This document shows positions 7,600 through 18,037 of a stretch of 64,000 bases of DNA, piece after piece. The position numbers and the translations under genes are program-made. How positions within the stretch are numbered: position 1 is the stretch's first letter; each line of letters begins with the position of its first letter. Location: contig NZ_BMKD01000010.1 in assembly GCF_014643835.1 (NCBI RefSeq), forward strand, positions 1-64,000, read 5' to 3'. The notes under the pieces are model-generated. The model made no database searches, was not told the DNA's origin, and was given only the letters and a program-made list of their open reading frames with translations. The DNA comes from Mucilaginibacter rubeus (GTDB taxonomy: Bacteria; Bacteroidota; Bacteroidia; Sphingobacteriales; Sphingobacteriaceae).

Positions 7600-8415
7600 T
7601 TATCTCCCAAAAGCCCAAACCAAAAACTTGGCCATCGCCTTGCCCCATGTAGCGGGATTATGGGTGCCTCCTACTATTTCAACATATTGAATTTCTTCAG
7701 GGCGTTTAAAGCCCTTCATCTCCATTTCTTTGATCAGGTCGATAGTATCGTCAATGGCATCAATAATGCCGTTTTTGTTTCGATCGCTGGTTTCATCTTT
7801 AGTGCCGGTTTGCAGCCAGGCATTGATAGCCGGTTTGGTTTTAGTTTCCCTGATCACCTGGTGCATCAGCCTGTCGGCGTCGGTATAGCCTTTGGACAGG
7901 TCTTTTCCCCGCCACCAAAACGAACCGGAAAAAACGCCTGTTTTATTGAACAATGCCGGATTATTCCAAACAATATCAAATGCGGATAAACCGCCGAGCG
8001 AAAAGCCTGCAAAGGCCGTTGCATCAAATTCAGTAAAGCTGGTTAATTGTAGTAATTGAGGCAATAGTTCTTCCTTTATAAATTGTGTATATACACCTGC
8101 TTTGGCACCCCGGCCTTTAAAATCGGGTTTACCAGCAATGCCATATTCATCCAGGCGGCTATCTCCGGCATGGATAGCTACGATCAGCAGCGGCTTAAGG
8201 CGATTGGTATTATATAATGTTTCGAGCGTGGTTTTTAATCCGAGGTTCTCAAGCTCCTGTCCGTCATTAAGCAGCAGCAGGTTTAGCGGTTCGGCGATAT
8301 CACTGTCTTCCGGCTTCAGGATGGTTAAGGTCACTTCCCGCTCCAGCAGTGCCGAGGTTATATTTATTTCTTGTTCGGTTATTGTCATTTCAGTATCAAG
8401 CCAGCCCGGGTACAT
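7600..8415 (-). CDS. Alpha/beta hydrolase, esterase D/enterochelin-esterase-like
   Basis: This 271-residue protein of the putative esterase family (PF00756 type) has the nucleophile elbow GFSLGG. A late His in GGTHNPATW is the likely catalytic histidine. The N-terminal part looks like the small beta-sandwich that often precedes this domain (VTLTILKPEDSD). There is no signal peptide, so it is probably cytoplasmic. The start at 8415 could instead be the Met at 8388 (MTITEQ). It is divergent from another alpha/beta hydrolase gene at 8553. The substrate is unknown; members of the family hydrolyse acyl esters or catecholate esters. Confidence 0.8.
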   Translation of the reverse strand: MYPGWLDTEMTITEQEINITSALLEREVTLTILKPEDSDIAEPLNLLLLNDGQELENLGLKTTLETLYNTNRLKPLLIVAIHAGDSRLDEYGIAGKPDFKGRGAKAGVYTQFIKEELLPQLLQLTSFTEFDATAFAGFSLGGLSAFDIVWNNPALFNKTGVFSGSFWWRGKDLSKGYTDADRLMHQVIRETKTKPAINAWLQTGTKDETSDRNKNGIIDAIDDTIDLIKEMEMKGFKRPEEIQYVEIVGGTHNPATWGKAMAKFLVWAFGR

Positions 8416-8552: not shown

Positions 8553-9260
8553 TTGACCGAAAAATTTCACCGCTGGCACTCACCCAACACCAACACCGAC
8601 CTCGAAATGCTGGTATTCGGCGACCGCGGTTATCCTGTGATCGTTTTCCCTACTACCAAAGGCCGCTATTATCAAAACAAAGATTTCGGCCTGATCGAGA
8701 GTGTAAAATGGTTTATTGATAATGGACTGGTGAAAATCTACTGCCCCGATACTATCGACGACCGCAGCTGGTACAATAAAGGCATCCACCCGGCCGACAG
8801 GGCCAAAACCTATGCAGGATACGATCGCATGTTGATAAACGAGCTCATCCCCTGGGTCATGCATGAAACAGGCGTTGGCAAGGTAGCTCTCGCCGGCTGT
8901 AGTTTTGGGGGCTATCATGCCGCCAATTTCGCGTTCAAACATCCTGAAAAGGTGAGGCATTTGTTTACCATGGGCGGGGCCTTTGATATTAAAATGTTTA
9001 CCGATGGTTATTATGATGATAACATTTTTTATAATAACCCGGTCGATTTTTTGCCGGGCAGTAACCATCATGACCTTTGGCAAATGAACATTGTACTTGG
9101 TACATCCGAGTATGACATATGTAAAGGGTATAATATCCAGCTCTCAAATATTTTAAAACAAAAAAACATTAAACACTGGCTGGATATCCGCCCTTTTGCC
9201 AATCACGACTGGCCCATCTGGCGCGAAATGTTCCCGCATTATTTATCAACGATTAAATAG
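8553..9260 (+). CDS. Esterase of the COG4947 type (alpha/beta hydrolase)
   Basis: This 235-residue hydrolase has the nucleophile motif GCSFGG and a late His in FANHDWPIW that fits the catalytic histidine. The N-terminus (HRWHSPNTNTDLEMLVFG) matches the usual start of this family, and no ATG lies upstream of it. The initiation codon is therefore probably the TTG at 8553. The gene opens a same-strand run with an ATP-grasp ligase, a GCS2 ligase, a glutamine amidotransferase and a second ATP-grasp-like gene. That suggests it trims, releases or transfers an acyl or peptide product of those enzymes. The role is inferred from context. Confidence 0.78.
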   Translation: MTEKFHRWHSPNTNTDLEMLVFGDRGYPVIVFPTTKGRYYQNKDFGLIESVKWFIDNGLVKIYCPDTIDDRSWYNKGIHPADRAKTYAGYDRMLINELIPWVMHETGVGKVALAGCSFGGYHAANFAFKHPEKVRHLFTMGGAFDIKMFTDGYYDDNIFYNNPVDFLPGSNHHDLWQMNIVLGTSEYDICKGYNIQLSNILKQKNIKHWLDIRPFANHDWPIWREMFPHYLSTIK

Positions 9261-9385
9261 AAACAAGAGATCAGGATTCAAGAAACAAGAAAATAAAAAG
9301 CAAGAGTTTAAGAGACAGGAAAAAAATGAAAAAATAAAGAGCAAGATTTACATCAACCTGAAACCCAAAGAAAAACAAACATAAA
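9261..9385 (+). other. Purine-rich degenerate spacer between esterase and ATP-grasp genes
   Basis: This spacer is almost all A and G on the plus strand, with recurring CAAGA/AAGAG words such as TTCAAGAAACAAGAAAATAA. It has no convincing gene. A similar purine-rich text built on GAGTCAAGA words lies between nuoD and nuoC at 43,367-43,425, so these may be degenerate members of one intergenic repeat family. No strong hairpin is seen, so transcription probably reads through into the next gene. Confidence 0.4.
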
Positions 9386-9398
9386 AACACCTACTACC

Positions 9399-10625
9399 AT
9401 GAAAAAAATCGGTATCTTATTCGGACAGGAAGATTCGTTTCCGCAGGCATTTGTTGACCGCGTGAACCAAAAAGCAGAAAAAGGCATCAGTGCCGAGTTT
9501 GTACGCCTTGATAAGGTAATGCAGGCCGAACCGCTTGACTATGCTGTGATCATCGACCGCATTTCGCAGGATGTGCCTTACTATCGCGCGGCCCTAAAAA
9601 ACGCGGCTATTTGTGGTACAGCGGTAATCAACAACCCTTTTTGGTGGAGTGCTGACGAAAAGTTTTTTAACAACGCCCTTGCTGTAAAAATCGGAGTTCC
9701 GGTACCTAAAACTGTAATTCTGCCATCAAAAGAATTGCCGGATGATACCACCAGCAAATCATTCCGTAACCTGGCTTACCCGCTTGATTGGAATGGCATT
9801 TTCAACTATGTAGGTTTCCCTGCCTATATGAAACCTTTTGACGGCGGCGGTTGGAAAGAAGTTTATAAGCTGGAAAATGAGAAAGATTTTTTCAGCAAAT
9901 ACGATAAAACCAAACAGTATGTAATGATGCTGCAGGAAGAGGTTATTTTTGACGATTACTTTCGCTGCTATTGCATTGGCGGCAAGCATGTGCGCATTAT
10001 GCAGTATGAGCCGCGTAACCCGCACCACCTGCGCTATGAGCATGGTAAAGCACCTGCATCTAAAAAGCTATTGGACACCATTAAAGATTATGTGATAAAA
10101 CTAAACCAATATTTAGGTTACGATTTTAATACAGTGGAGTTTGCCGTTCGCGATGGCATACCTTACGCTATTGATTTTTGTAACCCCGCCCCCGACGCCG
10201 AAGTTACCAGCGTAGGCCAGGAAAACTTTGAATGGGTGGTTGAAACAGCCGCCGATTATGCCATTGAACGCGCAAAAAAACAAAAAGACGGCTTTGACAA
10301 CCTTACCTGGGGCGAATTTGTAAAAACTTCGGCAGCAAAAATGCCGTTGGTAGCAGTTGCAAAAAAAAAGGCTGTTAAAGCAGATGTTTCCGTGGCTGTG
10401 GTTGACCATGCTATTGAAGACGAGGGCAAACCGAAGAAAACCAAAGCACCCGCAGCAAAAGCAGCTGTGGCAAAAGAACCGGCAGTAGCAAAAGAACCGG
10501 CGGTAAAAGCTGCCGCAGTGAAAGAAGCGGCAGTAAAAACCGCTGTGGTAAAAGAGCCTGTTGCCAAAGCTACAGCCGTAAAAGAAAAAGCAGCGCCTAA
10601 GCCTAAAAAGGCAGCTAAGAAATAA
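9399..10625 (+). CDS. ATP-grasp (RimK-like) ligase with Ala/Lys-rich C-terminal tail
   Basis: This 408-residue protein has an ATP-grasp fold over about residues 1-305: a pre-ATP-grasp domain (MKKIGILFGQEDSFP), the nucleotide-binding lysine strand FPAYMKPFDGGGW, and the metal-binding end (GIPYAIDFCNPAPDAE). Enzymes of this fold join a carboxylate to an amine through an acyl phosphate. Residues from about 315 form a low-complexity tail of Ala, Lys, Val, Pro and Glu with repeated AVKEPAV/AVAKEPAV units, ending in PKPKKAAKK. It resembles histone H1 tails and is not part of the fold. Neighbours are a GCS2 ligase and a glutamine amidotransferase. The substrate is unknown. Confidence 0.82.
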   Translation: MKKIGILFGQEDSFPQAFVDRVNQKAEKGISAEFVRLDKVMQAEPLDYAVIIDRISQDVPYYRAALKNAAICGTAVINNPFWWSADEKFFNNALAVKIGVPVPKTVILPSKELPDDTTSKSFRNLAYPLDWNGIFNYVGFPAYMKPFDGGGWKEVYKLENEKDFFSKYDKTKQYVMMLQEEVIFDDYFRCYCIGGKHVRIMQYEPRNPHHLRYEHGKAPASKKLLDTIKDYVIKLNQYLGYDFNTVEFAVRDGIPYAIDFCNPAPDAEVTSVGQENFEWVVETAADYAIERAKKQKDGFDNLTWGEFVKTSAAKMPLVAVAKKKAVKADVSVAVVDHAIEDEGKPKKTKAPAAKAAVAKEPAVAKEPAVKAAAVKEAAVKTAVVKEPVAKATAVKEKAAPKPKKAAKK

Positions 10626-10631
10626 ATAAAA

Positions 10632-10722
10632 GGTTGTCATTTCGAACGAGGAACGAGGAGAAATCCTGTACGCGCGATAAGCTATTCGTATAAGATTTCT
10701 CCCTACGGTCGAAATGACAACC
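10632..10722. repeat. Palindromic intergenic repeat, probably also a terminator
   Basis: Terminal inverted repeats GGTTGTCATTTCGA (10,632-10,645) and TCGAAATGACAACC (10,709-10,722) match perfectly. An inner pair, GGAGAAATC and GATTTCTCC, extends the hairpin, and a T-run follows at once. The text around GAACGAGGAACGAGGAG is itself repetitive. The unit looks like one of the palindromic interspersed repeats common in this phylum, and its position suggests it attenuates transcription between the ATP-grasp and GCS2 genes. Confidence 0.75.
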
Positions 10723-10750
10723 GTTTTTTAAGTAATAACCCTAACCAATT

Positions 10751-11848
10751 ATGAACGAATTTACCTTAGGTGTTGAAGAAGAATTTATGGTGATTGACCC
10801 GGTATCGCGGGAGCTAAAATCGCATGAGCAAAAAATTGTGGATGCAGCCCAAAAAATCCATGAAGACCAGGTGAAAGCCGAAATGCACCAGGCTGTAGTT
10901 GAGGTGGGTACACATATTTGCCGCAATACCCAGGAAGCCCGCAAAGAGGTAAGTAAGCTTCGTACCACGGTAGCGCAACTGGCAGGTGATATTGGTCTGC
11001 GGATTGGCGCCGCGGGTACACACCCGTTTTCGCACTGGCAGCATCAATTAATTACCGATAACCCCAGGTATTTTGAAATTGTGGATGAGATGCAGGAGGC
11101 GGCCCGCTCCAACCTCATTTTTGGTTTGCATGTGCATGTTGGCATCCAGTCGCGCGATATGGCTATTCATATTGCCAACCAGGTGCGCTATTTTTTGCCG
11201 CATGTGTATGCCCTTTCAACCAATTCGCCGTTTTGGGAAGGGCGGAACACGGGCTTCAAATCATTCCGTACCAAGGTTTTTGATAAGTTTCCGCGCACCG
11301 GTATCCCCGATTATTTCAGCAGCATTGAGGAGTACGACCGCTACATAAAGCTGCTCGTAAAAACCAATTGCATTGATAACGCCAAAAAAATCTGGTGGGA
11401 TATCCGGGTACATCCTTTCTTTGAGACTATTGAGTTCCGCATTTGCGACTGCCCTATGCTGGTTGATGAAACCATTGCGTTTACCGCTTTATTCCAGGCT
11501 TTATGTGCCAAGTTGTACAAGCTCAGGGCGCAAAACATGAAGTTTATTAACTATTCGCGCGCGCTCATTAACGAAAATAAATGGCGTGCAGCCCGGTACG
11601 GTATCGACGGCAAAATGATAGATTTTGGTAAGGAAATGGAGGTAAATACCCGATCGTTAATATTGGAACTACTTGATTTTGTAGACGATGTAGTTGATGA
11701 GCTTGGCTCACGCGATGACCTGCAATACGTACACAATATCCTGGAGCACGGCACCGGTGCCGACAGGCAACTGGCCATTTACCAGCAAAACAATAACTTT
11801 GCCGATGTGGTGGATTATATCACCTCACAAACTTTGAAGGGGTTGTAG
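10751..11848 (+). CDS. Carboxylate-amine ligase, GCS2/YbdK family
   Basis: This 365-residue protein belongs to the glutamate-cysteine ligase family 2 (COG2170). It opens with the family signature LGVEEEFMVID (the EEE group binds metal). It continues with AEMHQAVVEVGTH, HPFSHW, FGLHVHVGI, a WWDIRVHP segment and EFRICDCPM, all characteristic of YbdK-like enzymes. The length equals the family norm of about 370. YbdK from E. coli has weak glutamate-cysteine ligase activity; many homologues have unknown substrates. The surrounding ATP-grasp, glutamine amidotransferase and esterase genes suggest a dedicated peptide- or amide-forming pathway rather than glutathione synthesis. Confidence 0.9.
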   Translation: MNEFTLGVEEEFMVIDPVSRELKSHEQKIVDAAQKIHEDQVKAEMHQAVVEVGTHICRNTQEARKEVSKLRTTVAQLAGDIGLRIGAAGTHPFSHWQHQLITDNPRYFEIVDEMQEAARSNLIFGLHVHVGIQSRDMAIHIANQVRYFLPHVYALSTNSPFWEGRNTGFKSFRTKVFDKFPRTGIPDYFSSIEEYDRYIKLLVKTNCIDNAKKIWWDIRVHPFFETIEFRICDCPMLVDETIAFTALFQALCAKLYKLRAQNMKFINYSRALINENKWRAARYGIDGKMIDFGKEMEVNTRSLILELLDFVDDVVDELGSRDDLQYVHNILEHGTGADRQLAIYQQNNNFADVVDYITSQTLKGL

Positions 11849-11857
11849 TGACCCACT

Positions 11858-11977
11858 CACCCCACCCAAACCCTCCCCGGAAGGGAGGGCTTTAAACAGT
11901 TTGGGATATAAAAGGGGAGATTATTTTTTAAACATTAAAACAAAAAGTCTCCCCTATCAGGGGAGATTTAGAGGGGG
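11858..11977. repeat. Interspersed repeat, CCCTCCCC/GGGGAG type (copy 1)
   Basis: The unit begins CACCCCACCCAAACCCTCCC with a hairpin closing at GGGAGGGC. It ends with a second hairpin, AGTCTCCCCTATCAGGGGAG, followed by ATTTAGAGGGGG. The same outer text and order recur at 40,177-40,261 between nuoG and nuoF. Only four bases separate the unit from the ATG of the amidotransferase, so its GAGGGGG end may act as the ribosome-binding site. Confidence 0.75.
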
Positions 11978-11980
11978 CAT

Positions 11981-12808
11981 ATGAAACCGGAAATAAAAGT
12001 GGCCATACTTGATCTGTATGATGGGATAGCGAACGAGGGTATGCGCGGTTTCCAGGATATTTTAAAGCGATACCGAACCGAACACGATCTGAATTTAACT
12101 TACCAGATCTTTGATGTACGCCGCAAATGCGAAATGGCCGATCTCAATTTTGATATTTATATATCAAGCGGAGGACCCGGCAATCCATTGGAAACCGAGG
12201 GTACCGAGTGGGAAAAGAAATACTTTAACCTGGTTAATAAACTGGAAGATCACAACTTATCTAACAACAGCAATAAAAAGCATGTGTTTTTTGTGTGCCA
12301 CTCGTTTCAGTTAATGTGCCGTTATTACAAGCTCGGCGATATTAATATGCGGCGCTCGCCGTCGTTTGGCGTACTGCCGGTAAATAAAACCGGGCTTGGG
12401 TTAAATGAGCCATTATTTGAAGGTTTAGCCGAACCATTTTACGCTGTTGATTCGCGTAGTTGGCAGGTGATCAACCCGGATGAAAAACGCTTTAAAGAGC
12501 TGGGTATGCAACTGGTGGCGATAGAAAAAGAACGTCCGCATGTTGATTTACCAAGGGCAATGATGGCCATCAGGTATAACGATTATTTCTTTGCCACCCA
12601 ATTTCACCCCGAGGCCGATGCCGGGGGCATGAAAGGCATGTTGCTTCGCGAAGAAAAAAAGGACGAAGTGATCAGCGAGCATGGAGAAGTTAAATACCGC
12701 GAGATGCTTGAACGCCTCGACGATCCGGATAAAATAACACATACCCAGCATACGCTTATTCCTAATTTTTTGGATATGGCGGTAGAAAGTGCGTTGGGTG
12801 TGATATAA
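11981..12808 (+). CDS. Class I glutamine amidotransferase domain protein
   Basis: This 275-residue protein has the triad-type glutaminase fold. The nucleophile is C106 in FFVCHSFQ, and the His/Glu pair is H209 and E211 in QFHPEAD. The SSGGPGNP loop at about 62-69 fits the oxyanion/substrate loop of the family. Such domains release ammonia from glutamine, or cleave gamma-glutamyl bonds, and usually serve a partner synthetase. No synthetase domain is fused here, so the neighbouring GCS2 and ATP-grasp ligases are the likely partners. The C-terminal 60 residues lie beyond the usual domain. Its start sits directly behind a repeat ending in GAGGGGG. Confidence 0.87.
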   Translation: MKPEIKVAILDLYDGIANEGMRGFQDILKRYRTEHDLNLTYQIFDVRRKCEMADLNFDIYISSGGPGNPLETEGTEWEKKYFNLVNKLEDHNLSNNSNKKHVFFVCHSFQLMCRYYKLGDINMRRSPSFGVLPVNKTGLGLNEPLFEGLAEPFYAVDSRSWQVINPDEKRFKELGMQLVAIEKERPHVDLPRAMMAIRYNDYFFATQFHPEADAGGMKGMLLREEKKDEVISEHGEVKYREMLERLDDPDKITHTQHTLIPNFLDMAVESALGVI

Positions 12809-12839
12809 ACTGTAATTTCATTTTTTGTGTAGCGGGACT

Positions 12840-12909
12840 GTCATCCTGAGCCTGTCGAAGGACGCGCGCAGAGGCCCTGTCCACTATGCTTCGACAGGCT
12901 CAGCATGAC
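12840..12909. repeat. Palindromic repeat (GTCATCCTGAGCCTGTCGAAG type)
   Basis: The 21-base arms at 12,840-12,860 and 12,889-12,909 are inverted copies with one mismatch. They surround a 28-base centre. CTGAGCCTGTCGAAG arms are frequent in Bacteroidota intergenic regions. It begins 31 bases after the amidotransferase stop and could form a strong RNA hairpin there. Confidence 0.8.
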
Positions 12910-12925
12910 CCGATTAATAAATTAT

Positions 12926-13024
12926 CGTCATGTTGAACTTGTTTCAACACCCCACTTGCTAAGCCACATGCTAAGCAAATCGCCTACCTTTCTTGTGGGG
13001 TGCTGAAACAAGTTCAGCATGACG
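12926..13024. repeat. Palindromic repeat (GTCATGTTGAACTTGTTTCA type)
   Basis: The 30-base arms at 12,926-12,955 and 12,995-13,024 are inverted copies with two mismatches, around a 39-base centre that holds CTTGCTAAGCCACATGCTAAGC. This is a second, distinct palindromic family directly next to the first. Together they fill most of the 292-base gap before the next gene. Confidence 0.8.
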
Positions 13025-13100
13025 GCGTGGAGATGTCATTTCAGCTTTAGAGGTCACGGATTTAAAACTCAATATGACTTTGATTTAAAAATAATTATCG

Positions 13101-14294
13101 ATGAATCCATCAGCCAGAAAAACATTTAACAACACATTCAGCGAGGAAAAGTACAGTCAATTTCTGAATCTTCTTAATGAAGGGCTACGTAAACCTGTTC
13201 CGTTCCGTGTTGCGGAAACACCGGTGTTTTTGACTGCCGATTTTCGTAATAAGCTCATCGCCGCCGGTAATGATATTGTTGATACTATCCTCAAGCCCAA
13301 TTTCAAAGAACTGACCGAACGGGCTATTCCTGATTTTTGGCGGGTGGCCAATGAAAATGATCACCCGCATTTTATCGCCCTGGATTTTGGCATCTGTAAG
13401 GATGAGCAGGGCAATATCGTACCCAAACTCATCGAATTACAGGGCTTTCCTTCACTTTATGGCTTCCAGGTACATTTGGGCAATACCTACCGGGAAATTT
13501 ATGATATCCCTGCCGACGAAACTATCTTTTTCGGAGGGTTGGACAGGGAAAACTATCTCGATCTGCTCAAAAAGACAATCGTAGGTACTTACCATCCTGA
13601 TGAAGTTGTGCTAATGGATGTAAACGCCCCTGAGCAAAAAACATCGGTTGATTTTTACCTTACCCAAAAGTACATCGGCACGCCGGTTGTGTCATTGTCC
13701 GACCTGATCCAGGATGGCAAAAAGCTTTACTACATGGTGGGCGACCAAAAGAAACAAATTAAACGCATTTATAATCGTTTAATATTTGATGAGATAGCGG
13801 GCGATCCGGAGATCTTTACCAAAGTGGCCGATATCAGGCAGCCCCTTGAGGTTGAATGGATCACTCATCCCAACTGGTTTTATCGGGTCAGTAAATTCAC
13901 CATGCCTTTTTTAACAGGCAATTACATTCCCAAAACTCAGTTTTTGCACCAGTTAGAACAAATCCCTGCCAATTTGGAAAACTATGTGCTTAAACCGTTG
14001 TTCTCCTTTGCGGGTCAGGGTGTAATTATCGATATTAGTAAGGAAGACATAACAACTATTACAGATCCTGAAAACTGGATTTTACAGGAAAAGGTAAATT
14101 ACGAACCTGTTGTACAATCGCCGGAAGGCGGCGTAAAGGCCGAGATCAGGTTGCTTTATCTCTGGCCCGATGGGGATAAAAAACCCACACTTGCCATAAA
14201 CCTTGCGCGGTTAAGCCGTGGAAAAATGATAGGCGTACGTTATAATAAAGATTACAACTGGGTTGGCGGCACGGTTGCTTTTATGCCCCGTTAA
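13101..14294 (+). CDS. ATP-grasp-like protein of the amidoligase cluster
   Basis: This 397-residue soluble protein shows ATP-grasp features in its C-terminal half. The segment NYVLKPLFSFAGQGVIIDI fits the nucleotide-binding lysine strand and glycine loop. WILQEKV follows at about residue 335, and AEIRLLYLW then resembles the metal-binding strands. The N-terminal half (FIALDFGICKDEQGNIVPKLIELQGFPSLYGFQ) has a substrate-side look, with IELQGFPS recalling the acidic metal-binding loops of the fold in a permuted order. It is the last gene of the same-strand run with GCS2, the amidotransferase and the first ATP-grasp ligase. I infer a second ligation step. The family is not securely recognised. 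Confidence 0.65.
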   Translation: MNPSARKTFNNTFSEEKYSQFLNLLNEGLRKPVPFRVAETPVFLTADFRNKLIAAGNDIVDTILKPNFKELTERAIPDFWRVANENDHPHFIALDFGICKDEQGNIVPKLIELQGFPSLYGFQVHLGNTYREIYDIPADETIFFGGLDRENYLDLLKKTIVGTYHPDEVVLMDVNAPEQKTSVDFYLTQKYIGTPVVSLSDLIQDGKKLYYMVGDQKKQIKRIYNRLIFDEIAGDPEIFTKVADIRQPLEVEWITHPNWFYRVSKFTMPFLTGNYIPKTQFLHQLEQIPANLENYVLKPLFSFAGQGVIIDISKEDITTITDPENWILQEKVNYEPVVQSPEGGVKAEIRLLYLWPDGDKKPTLAINLARLSRGKMIGVRYNKDYNWVGGTVAFMPR

Positions 14295-14353
14295 ACTTTG
14301 TACTAATTACCCTGTCTGTACGTATATATTAAATAATGCTTAATTTTGTCTTT

Positions 14354-14515
14354 ATGAATATGCAGATCATCATTATCGCGATACTTTTTGCAGGCGCTGT
14401 TTTTTACATTGGCCGTATGATGTACAGGGCGCTTACTACTAAAAAAAGCTGCGGCGGCAATTGCAAATGCGGTATTGATTTTTCAGGTATCGAACCCGGA
14501 AAAACCACCAAATAA
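14354..14515 (+). CDS. Small Cys-rich membrane protein (FeoB-associated type)
   Basis: This 53-residue protein begins MNMQIIIIAILFAGAVFYIG, one transmembrane helix, and then has a short basic stretch and a cysteine cluster SCGGNCKCG (pattern CxxxCxC). That layout matches the small FeoB-associated Cys-rich membrane proteins (PF12669 type). No feoA or feoB is nearby, so any link to iron is inferred from the family alone. It lies between the ATP-grasp-like gene and the large glycosyltransferase fusion, with its own ATG. Confidence 0.7.
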   Translation: MNMQIIIIAILFAGAVFYIGRMMYRALTTKKSCGGNCKCGIDFSGIEPGKTTK

Positions 14516-14581: not shown

Positions 14582-17500
14582 ATGTCATCAAGCAAGCAAG
14601 TTTTTCAGGCTGATAATCCCGGTAGGTGGAACCGTTTTAAATGGTTGAGCCGTGTACTACTGGCTGCATTGATTATTGGTATAATAGCCGTTATTGTTAC
14701 TATCCGCTCAACCTATTACCCCGAGCTTCCCAACCTTAACCCTGCTCCCAAAAAAATGACCAGGGAGGAACTTGAACAATTAAAAAAATCAACGAAGTTC
14801 AAATCATTCAAAATACAAAAATCTGAAATAGAAGCACTTGAGAGAGCTAAGAAATTACATCAGCTTAAACAACCTAACAATAAAGACCGTATAAACGCCG
14901 CTTTTTATCGTGCGTGGGAACCTCAGGCTTATAACTCGCTGGTGGTGAATATTGGCCACCTGGATATGGTAGTGAGCGAAGGCTTTTCTATATTACCTAA
15001 AACTGATACCGTTGTAACCAAGCTCGATACCGGGCTGATGAACCTCAATAAAAAATACAACAAGCCGATTATTGTGTCGCTGTCAAACTACGTAAACTAC
15101 AACAACACACATGGCGGCTATGATACTAAAGATGTAGACCGTATTGTTAACAACAAAACACTTCGTAGTAATTTTATTAACAGCATAGCTAACTCGCTTA
15201 CCAAAAACAAGTTGAAGGGTGTCAATGTTGATTTTGATGAGGTGAGGGACCGCAACAGCAAAAATTACATAGCTTTTCAAAATGAGCTCTATGCAACCTT
15301 GCATGCCAAAGGTTTCCTGGTTACTCAAAACGTAGTGCCGGAGGATGAAAGCTTTGATATCACAAAGCTCCAGCATGTAAACGATTTCCTGTTCATCATG
15401 GCTATTGATGAACATTATGAAGCAACTAATGCCGGCGATCTTTCAAATCAGCGCTGGGTTGAGCAAATCCTCGATGATGTATGTTCGAAAGTTCCGTCAG
15501 AAAAAATAATTTTAACATTCGCGGGCGGCGCCTATGACTGGCCCGAAGGCAGTGTAGGTAAAACTATAGGTTATCAGCAGGCTATCAGTACCGCCGAAGA
15601 GCAAAAAAGCAAGATCACCTTTGATCCAAATTCGGCAAATTTACACTTCACTTATATGGACAAGGACAGTCTTGACCATTCCATATACTTTACAGACGCG
15701 GCAACAAACTTTAATGTAATCCGCATGGCCGACGACTGGGCCACCGGCGGCGTGGCTTTATGGCGTTTAGGTGCCGAAGATCCGCGTTTGTGGACATTTT
15801 TCCAGAAAAACCTGTCGATAGACTCATTGAAAAAAACAGGTGTGGATATGCGGAGACTTACATCTGTAGGTTTGAACAACCGTGTAAATGTTGACTATGA
15901 TGGTGATGGCGAGGTGCTTGACCTCATTACTACTCCTACCACCGGAGTAATTGATGTAAAAATGGATACATCTACGTTTACCATCCTCGATCAGCATTAT
16001 ATAAAACTTCCTACTAAATATGTGATCCGCAGGTATGGTTATGCCCCTAAGAAAGTGGTTTTAACTTTTGATGATGGCCCCGACCCCGATTTTACCCCAC
16101 GTATTTTAGATATCCTTAAAGCCGAAAAGGTACCGGCAGCATTCTTTGTTGTGGGTTCCATGGCCGAAAAAAACATACAGTTATTACGGCGCGAATACGA
16201 AGAAGGTTACGAAATAGGCAATCACACGTTCTTCCACCCCGATATTTCAACCATCAGCTTAAAGAGGGTGATCCTGGAGCTTAACTCCACGCGCAAACTT
16301 ATTGAATCGGTAACCGGCCGAAGCACTATCCTGTTCCGCCCACCATTTAATGCCGATGCCGAGCCGCAAACCCTTGCCGAGGTTATTCCGGTTGCAGAAA
16401 GCCGTCGTCAAAGTTATATCACCATCGGCGAATCTATCGATCCCTGGGATTGGCAGCCCGGCGTAACTGCCGATAGTATTATTGCCCGCACCATAAGGCA
16501 AAAAGATAACGGATCGATGATATTACTGCACGATGCAGGAGGTGATACCCGCGAAGAAACAGTTAAAGCCCTTCCTGCAATCATTCATTACTTTAAATCG
16601 CACGGATACCAGTTTACCACTATTGCCGATGTGCTGGGCAAAACTAAGGATGATCTGATGCCGCCGATTAAACCGGATCCAAGCACAGGTATTTTCGGGC
16701 CCGCTTATGATGTTTTTATTCATGGTTATTACTATATAAACTGGGCGCTGATCTATATATTCCTATCGGCTATATTCCTGGCGATTGGCCGCATTGTACT
16801 TATTGGCATTTTGGCTGTAAGGCAGCGAAGCGTGGATAAAAAATCCAAAAAGCTTGATCGCGATGCCGATGTGATGCCGGCCGTGAGTATCATAGTTCCT
16901 GCTTACAACGAGGAAGTTAACGCCGTAGCGACTATACAAAGTCTGCTCAAAACCGATTATCCATCGTTCGAGATCATTTTTGTTGATGACGGATCAAAAG
17001 ATAAAACATTTGAAGTTGTAGAGGCTGCTTACAAAGGTAATCCGCTCATCAAGATCCTAACCAAACCAAACGGAGGTAAGGCATCAGCATTAAACTTTGG
17101 TATCACCCATGCCCAAAATGATTTTGTGGTTTGTATTGATGCTGATACCCAACTCAAAACTGATGCTGTTTATCAGCTCATGACCTACTTTACCGATGAG
17201 GAAATAGGTGCTGTGGCCGGAACGGTTAAAGTTGGCAACGAAACCAATATCATCACCCGCTGGCAGTCGATAGAGTATATTACTGCGCAAAATATGGACC
17301 GCCGCGCGTTTGATCTCATCAATAGTATTACGGTTGTACCGGGGGCTATTGGTGCGTTCCGTAAATCGGCTATTTTCCGTGCAGGCGGGTTTACCTATGA
17401 TACTCTTGCCGAGGATTGTGATCTTACCATGCGTATCCTGAAACAAGGCTACGTAGTGCGTAACTGCGCCGAAGCCATTGCTTATACCGAAGCGCCGGAG

Positions 17501-18037
17501 ACGATAAACATGTTGCTTAAACAGCGTTTTCGTTGGAGTTTTGGTGTGATGCAAAGTTTCTGGAAAAACCGCGACGCGCTGTTTAACAAAAAGTACAAGT
17601 TCTTCGGGATGGTGGGGATGCCAAACATCCTTATCTTCCAGATCATATTGCCGCTGTTTTCCCCTCTGGCAGATTTGATGATGCTATTCGCCCTGTTCGG
17701 TGAAAAACCCGAAAAGATGCTGCTTTATTACGTAGCATTTGTGGTGGTTGATTTTATAGTAGGTATCATCGCTTTCCGGATGGAAAAGGAAGACTACAAG
17801 AAACTCATCTATATCATTCCGCAGCGTTTTATGTGGCGGCAGTTAATGTATTACGTGCTGTTTAAATCGCTACGAAAAGCATTGAAAGGCGAATTGAGCG
17901 GATGGGGAGTGCTTAAGCGTACGGGTAATGTGAAAGTTGATGGTTCGGGAAGCAAAAAAGCGCAGCCGATATATATGATAATTGGCGTGGCGATAGTTGC
18001 GGCAATTGTGTATTTGTTGTATAAACATTATAGTTAG
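14582..18037 (+). CDS. Trimodular GH18-like / polysaccharide deacetylase / GT2 fusion
   Basis: This 1151-residue membrane protein begins with a cytoplasmic tail and a transmembrane helix (about residues 25-42). A GH18-like domain follows (about 100-420), with GVNVDFDEV aligning to the catalytic strand of YaaH-type enzymes; D219 stands where Glu is expected. A CE4/NodB domain covers about 485-690 (TFDDGPD with D497/D498, HTFFH, FRPPF, LLHDAG). After a helix near 725 comes a GT2 synthase at about 765-1010 (VPAYNEE, VDDGS, DADTQ, AEDCD, QRFRW) and closing helices. The set mirrors PgaC (synthase) plus PgaB (deacetylase with glycosidase-like domain), so synthesis and modification of a beta-linked N-acetylhexosamine polymer is likely. 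Confidence 0.88.
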   Translation: MSSSKQVFQADNPGRWNRFKWLSRVLLAALIIGIIAVIVTIRSTYYPELPNLNPAPKKMTREELEQLKKSTKFKSFKIQKSEIEALERAKKLHQLKQPNNKDRINAAFYRAWEPQAYNSLVVNIGHLDMVVSEGFSILPKTDTVVTKLDTGLMNLNKKYNKPIIVSLSNYVNYNNTHGGYDTKDVDRIVNNKTLRSNFINSIANSLTKNKLKGVNVDFDEVRDRNSKNYIAFQNELYATLHAKGFLVTQNVVPEDESFDITKLQHVNDFLFIMAIDEHYEATNAGDLSNQRWVEQILDDVCSKVPSEKIILTFAGGAYDWPEGSVGKTIGYQQAISTAEEQKSKITFDPNSANLHFTYMDKDSLDHSIYFTDAATNFNVIRMADDWATGGVALWRLGAEDPRLWTFFQKNLSIDSLKKTGVDMRRLTSVGLNNRVNVDYDGDGEVLDLITTPTTGVIDVKMDTSTFTILDQHYIKLPTKYVIRRYGYAPKKVVLTFDDGPDPDFTPRILDILKAEKVPAAFFVVGSMAEKNIQLLRREYEEGYEIGNHTFFHPDISTISLKRVILELNSTRKLIESVTGRSTILFRPPFNADAEPQTLAEVIPVAESRRQSYITIGESIDPWDWQPGVTADSIIARTIRQKDNGSMILLHDAGGDTREETVKALPAIIHYFKSHGYQFTTIADVLGKTKDDLMPPIKPDPSTGIFGPAYDVFIHGYYYINWALIYIFLSAIFLAIGRIVLIGILAVRQRSVDKKSKKLDRDADVMPAVSIIVPAYNEEVNAVATIQSLLKTDYPSFEIIFVDDGSKDKTFEVVEAAYKGNPLIKILTKPNGGKASALNFGITHAQNDFVVCIDADTQLKTDAVYQLMTYFTDEEIGAVAGTVKVGNETNIITRWQSIEYITAQNMDRRAFDLINSITVVPGAIGAFRKSAIFRAGGFTYDTLAEDCDLTMRILKQGYVVRNCAEAIAYTEAPETINMLLKQRFRWSFGVMQSFWKNRDALFNKKYKFFGMVGMPNILIFQIILPLFSPLADLMMLFALFGEKPEKMLLYYVAFVVVDFIVGIIAFRMEKEDYKKLIYIIPQRFMWRQLMYYVLFKSLRKALKGELSGWGVLKRTGNVKVDGSGSKKAQPIYMIIGVAIVAAIVYLLYKHYS

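Follow-up and report, generated by a model that had tools for sequence, protein, structure and literature searches.

What do five adjoining genes make together, if they work together at all, when three of them code for ligases? The question is raised by positions 8,553 to 14,294 of a 64,000 nucleotide stretch of DNA from the soil bacterium Mucilaginibacter rubeus (contig NZ_BMKD01000010.1, positions 1 to 64,000; the whole stretch is called the window below). The genes code for an alpha/beta hydrolase (EST), a RimK-like ATP-grasp ligase (RIMK), a carboxylate-amine ligase (GCS2), a class I glutamine amidotransferase-like protein (GAT) and a second ATP-grasp ligase (AGX). Their open reading frames (ORFs) lie on the plus strand exactly as the first-pass annotation had placed them. 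It had proposed the five as a candidate for a joint amide-forming pathway.

Together with est2, a divergently transcribed esterase gene, these genes (the set) most likely act in one pathway. We lean towards a single pathway independent of non-ribosomal peptide synthetases, in which stepwise ATP-dependent amide ligations would yield a small peptide-like metabolite. The computed basis for this consists of the enzyme families and folds, the retention of candidate catalytic residues, the conserved gene order and the joint presence and absence of the genes.

Conserved order and joint presence in Bacteroidota

Gene order was surveyed in the best 80 of 234 loci with AGX relatives, picked by AGX similarity and coming mostly from Mucilaginibacter and Pedobacter. 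The order EST-RIMK-GCS2-GAT-AGX, with all five genes on the same strand and preceded by a divergent est2, is kept in 61 of the 80 loci; est2 has the opposite orientation in 63. An ordered subset of the set is found in 8 loci and AGX alone in 11. The gene order, whose conservation in relatives had been proposed as a check, is therefore kept, and the unit is larger than the five genes first described, as est2 belongs to it.

In three of the 11 loci with AGX alone, AGX lies at most 262 bases from the start of the contig stretch. The AGX of M. gossypii locus L011 is 91% identical to that of the window. Whole-genome searches with RIMK, GCS2 and AGX covered the other eight genomes with AGX alone, all of them Mucilaginibacter, and three congeners lacking GCS2. 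RIMK and GCS2 were found elsewhere and near each other in 8/8 of the former, and all three of the latter (G002, G004, G008) also lack RIMK and AGX.

The genes are often tightly packed in relatives: RIMK and GCS2 are separated by at most 30 bp in 39 of 103 cases, GCS2 and GAT in 55 of 91, counted per locus, some loci sharing a genome. In 14 loci from eight genomes GCS2 directly adjoins AGX, at a distance of -1 to 18 bp in 12 of these loci (seven of the eight genomes). The set can also be split. In four genomes (L168, L206, L207, L208) est2 adjoins RIMK-GCS2 apart from AGX; GAT and AGX adjoin in two of these genomes (L185, L186) and likewise in G211 (L187).

For the phylum-wide view, the same 198 Bacteroidota genomes were searched with each protein. 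Matches were found in 60 genomes for AGX (19 families, 46 genera), 62 for GCS2, 50 for GAT, 72 for RIMK and 95 for EST. AGX is present in 56 out of 56 genomes with GCS2 at or above 53% identity, an ortholog line that was set after seeing the data, at the gap between 53 and 47%; in 22 of these 56 genomes the two genes lie on separate contigs or over 6 kb from each other. Without this line, AGX or ligase X, which seems to replace it in some lineages (see below), is found in 60 of the 62 GCS2 genomes. X is present in the four genomes with GCS2 at 46-47% (G043, G125, G133, G144; the only one tested, G133, passes the NF010039 cut-off), and the two exceptions (G025, G188) have GCS2 matches at 32 and 38%. 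AGX or X accompanies RIMK in 69 of 72 genomes (exceptions G028, G108 and G181, at 34-45% identity) and GAT in all 50. Conversely, RIMK is found in 69 of the 71 genomes with AGX or X, there being no RIMK match in G165 and G175, which have AGX. Scattered, independent occurrence, which the first-pass annotation had named as a ground for rejecting its proposal, was thus looked for and, beyond the few exceptions just listed, not seen for the three ligases.

The effect of kinship on these figures was lowered by shuffling presences within families (20,000 shuffles each) over the 108 genomes of families holding AGX or X; families with neither were excluded, and the RIMK exception G108 was dropped with them. 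GCS2 and AGX agree in 104 of 108 genomes (best shuffle 90), RIMK and AGX or X also in 104 (best shuffle 94), GAT and AGX or X in 87 (best shuffle 75). The observed agreement was reached in 0 of 20,000 shuffles in each case. AGX presence is mixed in 11 families. Joint presence and absence, even when the genes are scattered, is what one would expect of a genuine pathway leading to a single product.

A role of the set in mobile DNA or defence was also considered. It was dropped: AGX and RIMK had no match on plasmids, no AGX relative was found in viral contigs, none of four proteins matched PHROGs, and none of six proteins matched the PADLOC anti-phage defence models at E 0.001.

Enzymes of the set and neighbouring genes

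The coordinates and assignments of the genes are collected in Table 1.

Table 1. Genes of the set and inverted repeats between them, in window coordinates
Feature	Position	Strand	Assignment
est2	7600..8415	-	PF00756 (enterochelin-esterase-like) alpha/beta hydrolase, Pfam E 2.2e-22; divergent partner
EST	8553..9260	+	alpha/beta hydrolase; PF00561/PF00756
RIMK	9399..10625	+	RimK/LysX-fold ATP-grasp ligase
GCS2	10751..11848	+	YbdK/PRK13515-family carboxylate-amine ligase; PF04107, NF010039
GAT	11981..12808	+	class I glutamine amidotransferase-like protein; PF00117
AGX	13101..14294	+	circularly permuted ATP-grasp ligase, eukaryotic-glutathione-synthetase / GspS / YgiC fold
long imperfect inverted repeats	10625-10729, 12840-12909, 12926-13024		in two gaps between set genes

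AGX has no Pfam or NCBIfam match at E 0.001, and this includes the Pfam families GSP_synth, GSH_synthase and CP_ATPgrasp. It does have a full-length permuted ATP-grasp fold, and its top Foldseek match is the solved structure 3n6x, a putative glutathionylspermidine synthase (2.1e-14). What we take to be the metal motif precedes the presumed ATP lysine, and both are conserved: D95, E112, K298 and K331 are invariant in 38 sequences. The second motif position is an asparagine in the fold relatives of AGX and is replaced by Q114 in all 38 aligned sequences. For Cp1B, a ligase with an AGX-like fold, the motif residues E163 and N165 are given in PMC12568646. AGX is a previously unnamed family, a branch within a well-studied ligase fold.

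GCS2 passes the curated cut-off of NF010039 with 546.8 bits against 371; this cut-off is exceeded in none of the 14 control genomes. Its nearest solved structure is YbdK (1r8g, E 2.9e-53); E9-E11, H91, H127, H129, R219, E228 and R230 are invariant in 56 aligned sequences, some of which share a genome. The nearest genome searched has a 100% identical GCS2. RIMK has the RimK/LysX fold, RimK and LysX being the closest, and scores 31.5 bits with TIGR00768 (RimK family alpha-L-glutamate ligase), far under the cut-off of 143.4. Its C-terminal tail, from about residue 325, is disordered and rich in Lys and Ala; many orthologs have such a tail and many others that retain the set lack it. GAT matches PF00117 (35.9 bits, cut-off 22.8) with an invariant Cys-His-Glu triad of C106, H209 and E211 in 29 aligned sequences. 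In EST, D188 and D211 are conserved in all 21 aligned sequences, S117 and H218 in all but one (L166). The variant clusters L150 and L152 also have a PF00756 esterase, located after GAT.

Ligase X, of about 450-510 aa, occupies the gap between RIMK and GAT in 11 genomes that have these two genes and lack AGX; six loci were read (L150-L155), the other five being assigned because the coordinates of the X match place it in the gap. Two X members were scanned with PF14403 (circularly permuted ATP-grasp type 2): one is above the Pfam cut-off and one below. When the 198 genomes were searched with a profile built from six X proteins, 12 matched, namely these 11 and G158, where the match is much weaker and AGX is also present. 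This profile matches 3n6x (E 2.5e-9), so that the same structure is reached by AGX through its fold and by X through its sequence profile. AGX and X seem to fill one slot.

Within the window, the genes of the set are separated by gaps of 125-292 bp. Two of the four gaps contain inverted repeats with arms of 16-30 nt; two repeat sequences were tested and have no further copy in the window, and promoter and terminator scans gave no excess over shuffles. AGX is followed by a plus-strand ORF of about 58 codons (about 14339-14515), Cys-rich near its end; most loci from Mucilaginibacter and Pedobacter have retained a short Cys-rich ORF next to AGX. Further downstream (14582-18037, plus strand) lies a gene for an 1151-aa protein in which a GH18-like domain, a polysaccharide deacetylase and a family 2 glycosyltransferase are fused. 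It is found downstream of AGX in most Mucilaginibacter loci.

Recurrent neighbours were clustered over 60 loci, keeping the largest groups only; those beyond the set come mostly from one or two families. Genome G146 (L172:2137-4737) has a sodium:solute symporter (PF00474) and AGX in one open frame of 867 aa, and in G154 (L171:3793-6369) an ORF that resembles the same symporter by eye directly precedes AGX. Nine loci from two families, in which the set is scattered (L161, L164, L174-L180; Pfam was run on one), have a PF07969-type amidohydrolase in the vicinity of AGX, which it directly adjoins in L161 and L164. The symporter is a possible clue to transport of the substrate or product, and both proteins, each confined to one or two lineages, could serve substrate uptake or processing. 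Two distant lineages encode a further ATP-grasp_4 type protein next to the cluster (L150:6636-7814, L158:5345-6553); in L158 the next ORF resembles a sugar nucleotidyltransferase by eye.

Proposed pathway and alternative explanations

Because of their families, GCS2, RIMK and AGX can each be expected to form one amide bond. GCS2 would produce a glutamyl amide, possibly a gamma-glutamyl one, and RIMK would add an amino acid or join another pair of carboxylate and amine. AGX would then link the carboxylate so formed to an amine or a small amino acid, a step modelled on the build of peptide-spermidine ligases and (homo)glutathione synthetase. GAT could provide ammonia from glutamine or remove a gamma-glutamyl or amide group, and the two esterases may process an ester-linked precursor or product. 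That the enzymes are active and work in series is an inference of ours, as are the order of the steps and what GAT and the esterases do. As to the kind of product, it is best read as a small gamma-glutamyl-type peptide that bears an amine or amino-acid cap.

A narrower version is tentative: a widespread, hitherto unassigned metabolite of Bacteroidota in which a polyamine or another amine caps a gamma-glutamyl-peptide, and which would be made by GCS2 and RIMK with AGX as a new branch within the glutathionylspermidine-synthetase fold. Such a cap is no more than a reasonable guess, since YgiC and YjfC were reported as peptide-spermidine ligases (Pederick 2023, as cited in PMC12568646). If this is true, bacteria would have an equivalent of glutathionylspermidine or trypanothione that is assembled without glutathione, and other lineages of the phylum would have a second version in which X replaces AGX. 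AGX or X is found in 71 of the 198 sampled genomes (about 36%), keeping the set. The family placement opens the way to direct substrate screens: the candidate amines and acids are few, only three enzymes have to be purified, and hosts such as Pedobacter can be cultured.

Several observations weigh against the pathway as drawn. The AGX sequence finds nothing significant among solved structures (best YgiC, E 0.037), and its fold does not fix the substrates. Direct profile comparison of AGX and X is weak (hhalign E 0.019, probability 2.5%), so we do not claim sequence homology between them. There is no GAT match in 21 of the 60 AGX genomes, and GCS2 is absent from four, all of which have AGX, RIMK and GAT, so some lineages can do without GCS2 and some without GAT. 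The reading of the first-pass annotation is supported in part: the order in relatives and co-occurrence even when unlinked favour a joint pathway, the unit exceeds its five genes, and the AGX genomes without GAT leave the two roles given to GAT tentative. EST has homologues in 95 of 198 genomes and is therefore not confined to the set, and the unlinked cases include draft assemblies, where contig ends could break linkage.

Among the alternatives, a glutathione-like or other low-molecular-weight thiol would have GCS2 as gamma-glutamylcysteine ligase and AGX as a glutathione synthetase of the eukaryotic type. We regard this as unlikely. Bacteroidetes are not among the carriers of gshA-gshB given in the accessible part of PMC6282198, a survey whose queries were E. 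coli and cyanobacterial genes and which was probably blind to AGX. The bacillithiol gene family bshC is found in 196 of our 198 genomes irrespective of the set, which makes a default thiol role for the set unlikely; this speaks against a default route and not against an additional thiol. Besides, ordinary glutathione synthesis leaves no place for RIMK, GAT and the esterases, and the four genomes without GCS2 have retained both RIMK and AGX.

The RimK protein of E. coli adds amino acids to ribosomal protein S6. RIMK might likewise add amino acids to a protein, with the other enzymes building or trimming the tag. Its closest folds, RimK and LysX, and the Lys/Ala-rich tail of many orthologs are in line with this, and the short Cys-rich ORF beside AGX could be a substrate; in more distant relatives no ORF below 80-100 aa was called, so a carrier protein could escape notice. 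Protein modification is nevertheless improbable, as many orthologs that retain the set lack the tail and the reported substrates of the structural relatives of AGX are small peptides and acids.

We also consider it quite improbable that the set serves amine catabolism or detoxification, with GCS2 gamma-glutamylating an amine, later steps processing the product and GAT hydrolysing the gamma-glutamyl bond. The class I amidotransferase fold does include gamma-glutamyl hydrolases, and the symporter in the open frame of AGX in one genome and the amidohydrolase in nine loci would suit such a route, but three ligases exceed its needs and GAT is missing from 21 of the 60 AGX genomes. As the neighbours were grouped by clustering, amine-catabolic partners among them could escape notice. 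Finally, although order can be inherited within the single phylum surveyed, it is very improbable that the genes are neighbours through vertical inheritance without shared function, given that they are present or absent together within 11 families and also where they are unlinked.

Comparison with known systems

The enzyme kinds of the amide-ligating pathway favoured here are known ones; their fixed combination and the AGX branch were not found in our searches of open-licence literature, though Iyer et al. 2009 may list it. The amidoligase neighbourhoods of that work reportedly include ATP-grasp and glutamine-synthetase-like ligases predicted to cooperate, permuted ATP-grasps among them. Among the matches listed in open-licence literature, no title or abstract opening describes this set or names its product, and nothing pairs Mucilaginibacter with ATP-grasp or Pedobacter with carboxylate-amine ligase.

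GCS2 is like the YbdK / NF010039 carboxylate-amine ligases, being above the cut-off of a model that names the activity only in general. RIMK differs from the RimK and LysX ligases in falling far under the NCBIfam RimK cut-off and, in part of the family, in its Lys/Ala tail. The Cp1B ligase of E-64 biosynthesis (9cjn) makes an epoxysuccinyl-amino acid amide; it is fungal, the second amide is formed there by an ANL enzyme, and no GCS2, RimK or amidotransferase is named in the accessible part of the account (PMC12568646). From glutathionylspermidine synthetase, YgiC and YjfC, AGX is set apart by only 12-15% identity, the lack of a Pfam match at E 0.001 and the glutamine at the second motif position; it is accompanied by RIMK, GCS2 and GAT. 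Compared with eukaryotic glutathione and homoglutathione synthetase, AGX stands in a set with an extra ligase and an amidotransferase, in a phylum where nearly all genomes have bshC.

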